Source: Chitinophagaceae bacterium (GTDB lineage Bacteria > Bacteroidota > Bacteroidia > Chitinophagales > Chitinophagaceae). From it: 64,000 bases of DNA. Location: positions 1,320,163 through 1,384,162 of the forward strand of contig JANINS010000004.1 of the NCBI GenBank assembly GCA_024508725.1, read 5' to 3'. Below the pieces are notes generated by a model that was not told the origin of the DNA, made no database searches, and worked only from the letters and a program-made list of their open reading frames with translations. Made by a program: the position numbers and the translations under genes. Position 1 is the first letter of the stretch. Every line of letters starts with the position of its first letter. Below, one piece after another: positions 22,149-24,014 of the stretch.

Positions 22149-23555
22149 TCACACCTCAGCATGTTCCTGTTCTTGCTTCTTCACGTTTATCACATAAGTT
22201 GAAGACACAGGTTGGTCTGATATAACAAATTGCCTCCGAATTTGTGGCTTCACAAAAAAACGAATGAGGGGTGCAGCCAGTATTACAATAGCTACAGTGA
22301 GTAAAAATCCACTGAAAGAAAACACATGAAACCATGGTTTTAATTTGATCATGATCTCTGCAAAAGGCTTGTTTGCACTTTGTGATGCAGCTTTAGCTAT
22401 TCCACTTCCAATGAGTGATATCCAAAATACCAGTAAAGAAACATTAAAGAACCCCATTACAAACTGATTCCAGCCGGTAGTATTTAAAGCAGGTAATTTT
22501 TTTTCAAGAAAAAGAATATAGAATCCTGCAGCAAGCAAAATAGTAGTATTGATACCAATCGTAGCTCCCATTGCATGTGCTACTGTAATATGAGTGCCGT
22601 GCGTATATTGATTGAGTGCAGGTATGGAAATAAGTATTGCAAGAGTAAGATTAAGTAATATCCAGTTATCGGTTGATCTTAACATGCGGTAAGAGAAATG
22701 TTGCTCTTTATCTTCTTTAGTAAGCGACTTACTCCACTTCCAGATCATATTAAATAGGATGAGTAGCTCTGTCATACTGATCGCATAAGCTGTGATCCTG
22801 ATAGCAGGTGAAGCAGGAACAACATAAGTATGATGTCCCCAGTTGAACATAAGATTGGTTAATCCAAGGAAGTAAAAGAAAAATGCAGGTTTTGATCTTG
22901 CCATTTCATCGCTCTTGCTGATCTTACACATCACGTACATAGCAGATCCATATATCAACATATTCCATGCTCCTACCATTGAACCCAAGGCTTTCCATTG
23001 TATGGTGATATCACGGATAATGTTCGCATTAAAATGATCGAATTGCCACAATGTTGCTTCGGTGATGGTGATGATGAAGAACACTAATCCTGTAGTCCAG
23101 CTCCAAACGTACACAGGAGCTTTATTAAAGTTCGGACGAACTGTGCCGATAAAATTGATAAGTGCCAGTATCCAACCCAATATCATTACACCAGCCATCC
23201 ATAAAGGGAACTCCATGTATTCCCGTCCAGTAAAATTTCCGAGAAAGAAATAACTAATGGCCACCATAATAATAGATACCTGCATCAACAGGTGTACCTG
23301 TGCTAAGATTGGTGAGAAGAGTTTTCTTTTAGCAACCGAAGGAATAAAATAATACATGCTTCCTGTTGCAGCACTACTGATCCATTGTGTGATCAGGAAA
23401 ACATGTAAAGGACGCATGTGAGCAAAGCTGAATTGCTCTTTTAAAAAGCCTGGCCAAATGTATTGTAAACTACCCGACATTCCAAACAGCAATCCCAGGA
23501 TCAAACACGAAAGTGATAATACCCAGAAACCAAAAGCAACACGTTTACCTGTCAT
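22149..23555 (-). CDS. NorB/CcoN-like haem-copper oxidase superfamily subunit I, divergent
   Basis: About twelve membrane helices and several superfamily landmarks are visible. His51 (MRPLHVF) corresponds to the first low-spin haem ligand, GHH at 240-242 to the two adjacent metal-site histidines, and THITVAHAMG around His327 to the C-terminal haem-ligand region. Aligned by eye with Pseudomonas NorB, the helix that should carry His207 and Glu211 reads LGSMVGAWN (190-198), with no His or Glu. The HxH pair also reads HAM, with Met329 at the second position. The gene overlaps a NorC-like cytochrome c gene by ATGA. I infer a NO-reductase-like or altered redox enzyme; catalysis is uncertain. Confidence 0.72.
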   Translation of the reverse strand: MTGKRVAFGFWVLSLSCLILGLLFGMSGSLQYIWPGFLKEQFSFAHMRPLHVFLITQWISSAATGSMYYFIPSVAKRKLFSPILAQVHLLMQVSIIMVAISYFFLGNFTGREYMEFPLWMAGVMILGWILALINFIGTVRPNFNKAPVYVWSWTTGLVFFIITITEATLWQFDHFNANIIRDITIQWKALGSMVGAWNMLIYGSAMYVMCKISKSDEMARSKPAFFFYFLGLTNLMFNWGHHTYVVPASPAIRITAYAISMTELLILFNMIWKWSKSLTKEDKEQHFSYRMLRSTDNWILLNLTLAILISIPALNQYTHGTHITVAHAMGATIGINTTILLAAGFYILFLEKKLPALNTTGWNQFVMGFFNVSLLVFWISLIGSGIAKAASQSANKPFAEIMIKLKPWFHVFSFSGFLLTVAIVILAAPLIRFFVKPQIRRQFVISDQPVSSTYVINVKKQEQEHAEV

Positions 23556-23935
23556 GGTGCAGGATTTAGATTGTTATGAACTGAAGCATCAACATACGTG
23601 AGGTAAGCAAGAACAGCATTTACCTGTTCATCAGTTAAGTGAAAATTGGGCATTGTTGTTCCACCGGATCTGATAAATGCTGCAGCATATTCTTTTCCTC
23701 GTCTTTTATCAGAGATAATATTGGTAAGATCAGGACCAAGGTATCCTCCCAAACCATATAGCTGGTGACAGGCAACACAGTTATTGGTTTGCCATACTTG
23801 CTTCCCAAGTTGCTCTTGTCCGGAGAATTTCAGATTGTGATTATCCTCTGTTCCTTGTGTGTACACCCATCCGCTATAAGCAGAATAGCTGAGAAACAGA
23901 ATCGCAAAAACAGTTGTTTTCTTTTTCCAGTTCAT
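23552..23935 (-). CDS. NorC-like membrane-anchored cytochrome c
   Basis: One N-terminal membrane anchor (FAILFLSYSAYSGWVY) precedes a single cytochrome c domain with CVACH at residues 53-57 and probable axial Met95 (GGTTMPNF). The segment YGLGGYLGPDLTN after the haem site is typical of the NorC/CcoO-type group. It should pass electrons to the adjacent subunit I, to which it is translationally coupled by an ATGA overlap. I place the start at ATG 23935 instead of the TTG at 23944. Confidence 0.8.
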   Translation of the reverse strand: MNWKKKTTVFAILFLSYSAYSGWVYTQGTEDNHNLKFSGQEQLGKQVWQTNNCVACHQLYGLGGYLGPDLTNIISDKRRGKEYAAAFIRSGGTTMPNFHLTDEQVNAVLAYLTYVDASVHNNLNPAP

Positions 23936-24014
23936 CGCCGCCAAAATTCAAATTCGGCGGATTGAGATTCTATGATTTAGATCAGTTTGTTGTGAATATC
24001 AGGACTTGATAAAA

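Follow-up and report, generated by a model that had tools for sequence, protein, structure and literature searches.

Among the described systems compared here, the NO reductase cNOR (NorCB; 4xyd and 3o0r) has a NorB subunit in which we take haem b to be bound by His60 and His349, haem b3 by His347, FeB by His207, His258, His259 and Glu211, and calcium by Glu135. Both NorB and the cbb3 oxidase subunit CcoN (3mk7) have the fold of the haem-copper oxidase superfamily. As described in PMC3413370, this superfamily has a signature of six His residues, and in NO dismutase (NOD) one His is changed to Asn and one Glu to Gln. NorQ and NorD are reported to be essential for FeB insertion into cNOR (PMC9976466). 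The sNOR, gNOR and eNOR families are described as having a cupredoxin second subunit (PMC8756737).

In this study, we examined a gene pair encoding a NorB-like subunit and a NorC-like cytochrome c in the window, that is, the whole 64-kb stretch of DNA that was analysed, on contig C4 of a 3.88-Mb genome. We tentatively propose that the pair forms a NorCB-type membrane complex without a canonical FeB site, which now serves N2O respiration in Bacteroidota as a conserved accessory. Its role, suggested here with some reserve, may be NO binding with slow turnover, guarding NosZ from NO, rather than respiratory NO reduction. Taken jointly, its anatomy and its link to nos are very probably right.

Results

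The gene pair and its family

As listed in Table 1, the two genes overlap by 4 bases on the minus strand. The listed open reading frame of the cytochrome begins at TTG 23944, upstream of its ATG. The reading frames, coordinates and residues given in the original prediction were correct. Of the three PF00115 matches in its own genome, the NorB-like protein was the weakest, and its best solved relative by sequence was NorB 4xyd (E 3.6e-11). No NCBIfam model matched it above the model's cut-off, and no signalling domain was found by Pfam in either subunit.

Table 1. Coordinates of the gene pair, a possible operator and TM413 genes (positions of the window unless a locus is named)
Feature	Position	Strand	Description
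NorB-like subunit gene	22149..23555	(-)	468 aa; haem-copper-oxidase fold
NorC-like monohaem cytochrome c gene	23552..23935	(-)	127 aa from ATG at 23935; one N-terminal membrane helix
Possible operator: one-mismatch copy of palindrome ATGATNNNNATCAT	23972..23985	.	37-50 bases upstream of cytochrome ATG
TM413 example	L037 8335-9576	(+)	
TM413 in own genome	L144 12793-14070	(+)	

In a sample of 395 Bacteroidota genomes, 29 gave any match to the NorB-like protein and eight contained close relatives (E 1.6e-38 or better). Below these eight there was a gap, and the matches beyond it (E 7e-17 and weaker) were to canonical cNorB and CcoN-like proteins. A scan of genome contigs gave 556 stretches encoding a relative, and the best 80 of the 556 (L034-L113) were taken as family rows; the titles of these 80 name Bacteroidota or groups within Bacteroidota. 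The cytochrome gene adjoined the NorB-like gene in 74 of the 80 loci. It was separated from it by other genes in L043, L061, L075 and L078 and was not found within the stretch examined in L051 and L068. The intervening genes resemble tryptophanase or tyrosine phenol-lyase, as named by eye. Among plasmids, 216 records matched, all below 60% identity, and no family member was seen among the 40 of the 216 listed (20.9-26.5%). A literature search, in which subscription journals were poorly covered, found no paper describing the family as lacking FeB ligands.

Residues at the haem and metal sites

When the protein was aligned by phmmer with NorB of P. aeruginosa (3o0r), His51 was paired with 60, Glu112 with 135, His241/242 with 258/259, Glu263 with 280, His327 with 347 and Met329 with 349. 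Glu263 was kept, as were His51, His241, His242 and His327, and the second His of the HxH pair was replaced by Met; apart from Glu263, all of this had been read by eye in the original prediction. That reading had also placed Leu190 at His207 and Val194 at Glu211. The same pairing was obtained with a MAFFT alignment of relatives with cNorB, carried over to the window; the HMMER alignment was shifted by one in TM VI, with Gly191 at His207 and Glu211 in a gap. At the level of sequence, H207 and E211 are lost under either resolution of this one-residue ambiguity. TM VI reads IQWKALGSMVGAWN in the NorB-like protein and WWVVHLWVEGVWE in cNorB.

We compared 81 rows, the 80 Bacteroidota relatives and the window. 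TM VI columns 183-205 contained no His, Asp or Glu in any of the 81 rows, and Cys in seven. Met329 was invariant in all 80 rows complete there, a count to be read with the scan, which used two conserved peptides, one of them containing Met329, so that members without it may be under-sampled. With L064, the 81st row, omitted because it is truncated there, the pattern at the six signature positions was H-x-H-H-H-M in all 80 complete rows, with x being Tyr in 27, Leu in 20, Asn in 13, Met in 11, Thr in five, Gly in two, and Ser and Ala in one each. Four of the six His of the superfamily signature are therefore kept. In all, 57 positions were the same in at least 80 of the 81 rows, among them His51, Glu166, Gln186, Trp187, Lys188, Asn198, His241, His242, Glu263, His319, His327 and Met329; both His of the 241/242 pair and Glu263 were present in all 81. 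His319 was the sole further near-invariant His (80 of 81 rows), and the cNorB rows of the alignment have it too. Position 322 was His in 71 rows and Gln in nine. A replacement His from another helix for the FeB/CuB site was sought across the 81 rows, and none besides His319 was fully conserved. The cytochrome partner had CxxCH and Met98 in 75 of 75 rows, which bears out the predicted retention of its haem site and axial Met.

A pseudogene or sequencing damage was ruled out, as the same residues are kept and lost in 81 rows with a median pairwise identity of 45%. Because the family is strongly conserved without the canonical FeB-site residues, it is neither a standard NO reductase nor debris. 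As read from their sequences, the proteins retain the haem c site, the proximal His of haem b3, the Glu280 equivalent and two of the three FeB His. They have lost the FeB Glu and the remaining FeB His, and Met stands in place of His at one haem b ligand position.

Fold and phylogeny

An AlphaFold2 model of the NorB-like protein (mean pLDDT 86.1, pTM 0.87) has the predicted 12-helix subunit I fold of the haem-copper oxidase superfamily. VIA-align gave Z 40.4 (2.4 A, 419 residues) to NorB 4xyd, 39.6 to cbb3 3mk7 and 38.7 to 3o0r, and the top rank in Foldseek was cbb3. Since the NorB and cbb3 matches are nearly tied, the overlay that had been proposed on cNOR and cbb3 supports the superfamily fold and leaves the choice between NorB and CcoN undecided.

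A tree of 46 rows included 22 of the 81 family rows, which formed one side of a branch (93/82); cNorB (17 rows) lay on another (100/98) and cbb3 (five rows) on another; a NOD-like row grouped with cNorB. The family is thus placed apart from cNOR and cbb3, and the deep order of the tree is unsure because the program warns of long branches.

The family shares with cNOR the fold, a NorC-like partner gene, haem c and the equivalents of His60, the haem b3 His347, His258/259, Glu280 and Glu135. It differs from cNOR in lacking FeB His207 and Glu211 and in having Met at the haem b His349, so that the bis-His haem b (H60/H349) is not found; it also falls outside the NorB clade, with 17-18% identity over the structural alignment. 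With cbb3 it shares the fold (Z tied with NorB within about 1), but it lacks the TM VI His for CuB, has Met for the second haem b His and forms a separate clade.

Association with N2O reductase

NosZ (TIGR04246) was found in 129 of the 395 phylum-sample genomes and in all eight of those with the family (hypergeometric p 1.1e-4). We also assembled a set of 55 genomes with the family, consisting of 50 from the 80 named loci together with G000, G383, G367, G290 and G192; the remaining three of the eight phylum-sample genomes appear already among those 50 (same match positions). NosZ was matched in 45 of the 50 (44 over the cut-off and G425 in two pieces), and the five without NosZ are all MAGs. 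Together, the 50 and the other five gave NosZ in 50 of 55 genomes. The family was present in only eight of the 129 nosZ genomes of the phylum sample, and one Cloacibacterium genome has NosZ without the family; therefore, NosZ does not need the family in general. In G425, the genome of L097 (Sediminibacterium salmoneum), the two NosZ pieces at C1:1092091-1093904 overlap in separate frames, and the gene may be broken or misassembled.

The pair sat in a nos cluster in 19 of the 80 loci. It lay directly behind nosY or nosY-RIC in eight of these (L036, L038, L041, L044, L057, L070, L072 and L087) and behind Crp-TM413, divergent from nos, in ten (L035, L037, L047, L049, L050, L054, L064, L066, L069 and L074); L103 was the remaining one. 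Among the flanks of the 80 loci, the NO-repair protein RIC/ScdA occurred in 32, Rrf2 in 26, Crp in 23, NosY in 22, NosD in 21, NosL in 20 and NosZ in 17. Each label rests on one representative: NosZ, NosD and NosF were named by reading the sequence, and RIC, Rrf2, Crp, NosL and the ABC permease by Pfam. In the window's own genome, the pair is about 220 kb away from a nos cluster that is divergent from Crp-TM413-RIC, like the second nos-locus type, and already contains the maturation genes nosL, nosD, nosF and nosY. TM413 denotes a membrane protein, about 413 aa long, that carries an HGHSHF motif and has no match in Pfam; it lies beside nos or NO genes in 24 of 80 loci (Table 1). A 603-aa protein without a Pfam match (L081 5379-7190(+)) recurs in 17 of 80 loci.

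The position in nos clusters, NosZ in 50 of 55 genomes and the intact haem c site would also suit an electron-supply module for NosZ, a relay linking the quinol/cytochrome pool with the periplasmic cytochrome that donates electrons to NosZ, in which the old catalytic site is structural only. Clade II NosZ is reported to receive electrons by a pathway unlike that of clade I (PMC11168931). We consider this main rival rather unlikely: most nosZ genomes in the sample do without the pair, and the invariant His241, His242 and Glu263 exceed the needs of a wire. These invariant distal residues speak against a mere wire.

NO reductase genes and the Cloacibacterium cnorB

Among the 55 genomes with the family, canonical cNorB was found in 13 (78-95% identical to the query; in two pieces in G192), and NorD was found in exactly the same 13. 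NorD was sought in the 42 without canonical cNorB and found in none, which is a further difference from cNOR. A NorC-NorB-NorQ-like-NorD-like unit, with NorQ and NorD named from sequence, lies near the pair in seven loci. Genes of qNOR type were present in five of the 55 genomes. Two of the five carry the His-Asn and Gln changes of the NOD signature, two share 72-82% identity with the NOD-like query, and one is 35% identical. Neither canonical cNorB nor a qNOR-type gene was found in 38 of the 55. NirK was above the cut-off in 16 and gave any match in 20, while the NirS search gave no match in the 55 genomes and its control likewise matched nowhere. In the window's own genome, NosZ is present, and canonical cNorB, the qNOR-type query, NirK and NorD gave no match at the limits used. 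The proposed check of co-occurrence with nir and nos genes thus gave NosZ in 50 of 55 genomes and NirK above its cut-off in 16. A simple substitute for a missing NO reductase in denitrifiers is not supported, with NirK in 16 of 55 and canonical cNorB also present in 13.

Previous reports described cnorB in one branch of Cloacibacterium and its absence from another (PMC11879220), 'minor NO reductase activity' in CB-01 (PMC11168931) and a path from NO to N2O to N2 predicted from genes (PMC9239227). In PMC11879220 and PMC11168931, the Cloacibacterium 'cnorB' or 'cNor' is taken as an NO reductase gene. We found the family in five of seven Cloacibacterium genomes (51% identical) and NosZ in six of the seven. 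All five members had a TM VI stretch without His and Met at the haem b place. Canonical cNorB was sought in the seven genomes and not found; five query matches of 24-25% identity fall on the family's own gene, which was the sole NorB-like gene found there besides CcoN. The five of seven genomes fit the branches with and without cnorB of PMC11879220. These results suggest that the published Cloacibacterium 'cnorB' is very probably the family; for the 'cNor' of CB-01, whose assembly is named in PMC11168931 as GCA_907163125, we infer the same from the genus.

If the family were a working NO reductase with a new type of site, a metal would be bound by a non-standard ligand together with His241/His242, or haem b3 would act alone. 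The kept distal His pair and Glu280 equivalent, the NO-related neighbours and the 38 genomes with neither canonical cNorB nor a qNOR-type gene are in line with such an enzyme. It is nevertheless improbable, as TM VI holds no conserved acid or His, NorD occurs only where canonical cNorB is present, the activity reported for CB-01 is minor (PMC11168931), NirK reaches only 16 of 55 genomes, and canonical cNorB alongside in 13 leaves no simple substitution.

A shared palindrome

FNR-type boxes occurred upstream of the pair in 1 to 3 of 74 cases, against shuffled means of 0.1 to 1.2. A palindrome, ATGATNNNNATCAT, arose from a dyad scan of the pair loci. We counted it in upstream intergenic DNA with at most one mismatch and compared it with other genes (43 of 401) by a one-sided Fisher test, whose p-values are optimistic because the rows are related. 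It preceded the pair in 16 of 50 loci (Fisher 1.6e-4), the same loci that gave rise to it. Neither the controls nor the nos and RIC promoters had entered into the discovery of the palindrome, and 12 of 15 nos cytochrome genes (Fisher 3e-9) and 14 of 27 RIC genes (Fisher 6e-7) had it upstream. Rrf2 had it in five of 23 (Fisher 0.10), and there was no excess before TM413 (1 of 11; Fisher 0.72) or NosZ itself (0 of 4; Fisher 1). Nine copies occur across the 18-kb nos stretch of the window's own genome; three of these lie close to the start of Crp or in the DNA separating Crp from TM413, and the last of the three is exact. The single copy before the window's cytochrome gene (Table 1) means little, because the 64-kb window contains eight further copies with one mismatch.

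An NO- or redox-sensing role, or one in NosZ maturation, would agree with this palindrome and with the regulators flanking the 80 loci (Crp-type in 23, Rrf2-type in 26), but is very unlikely given no Pfam signalling domain in either subunit and nosL, nosD, nosF and nosY already in the own genome's nos cluster.

Discussion

Our best guess, and the reading that suits the observations best, is a haem b3 without FeB that binds NO or turns it over slowly, with electron supply to NosZ as the main rival. Electrons would enter at haem c, cross a haem b with predicted His/Met ligation and arrive at haem b3 without FeB or with an altered metal. As His241, His242 and Glu263 are invariant, the pocket that contains them may still handle a small ligand. 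The neighbours and the shared palindrome suggest a role beside NosZ and NO repair, and the regulator of the complex may be common to nos and NO-repair genes. NO would be bound and slowly turned over at haem b3, which would keep it from NosZ.

The original prediction had offered a changed metal site, as in recently described NO reductase families with unusual ligands, or another function. The first part and the last remain in agreement with a TM VI without a substitute acid or His and with NorD found only alongside canonical cNorB. The likeness to those families is not supported: the matches of the pair are to NorB/CcoN and to a NorC-like cytochrome, and the adjacent partner is a cytochrome c and not the cupredoxin of sNOR, gNOR and eNOR, from which the pair is set apart by description in a comparison that covers these three families.

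The family may represent a distinct and widespread lineage, a possibility we raise cautiously, with the haem-copper-oxidase fold and a low-spin haem b bound by His and Met but with neither FeB nor CuB; it would work alongside N2O reductase as a dedicated component of N2O respiration in Bacteroidota and would so far have been counted as cNOR, including in strains proposed for N2O mitigation. Among Bacteroidota, clade II N2O reducers are being advocated as sinks for N2O. Should their 'cnorB' prove to be something other than an NO reductase, the predicted N2O production from NO would be wrong and surveys would overcount NO reduction. The family is also a concrete candidate for a further requirement of N2O respiration in Bacteroidota. 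A superfamily complex that has no ligands for FeB and conserves Met at the haem b ligand position would be a natural experiment on the purpose of the second metal.

NO dismutase, which is qNOR-like, also has an NO reductase-type fold with altered FeB ligands. The family differs from it in keeping the His pair and Glu263 and losing other positions, whereas NOD is a fused qNOR-type chain. A NOD-like gene (GISHNFYW, FSTLQV; His to Asn, Glu to Gln) adjoins the pair in L083 (7164-9509(-)) and in L008/G383 (L125), and relatives of this gene with 72-82% identity occur in G399 and G407.
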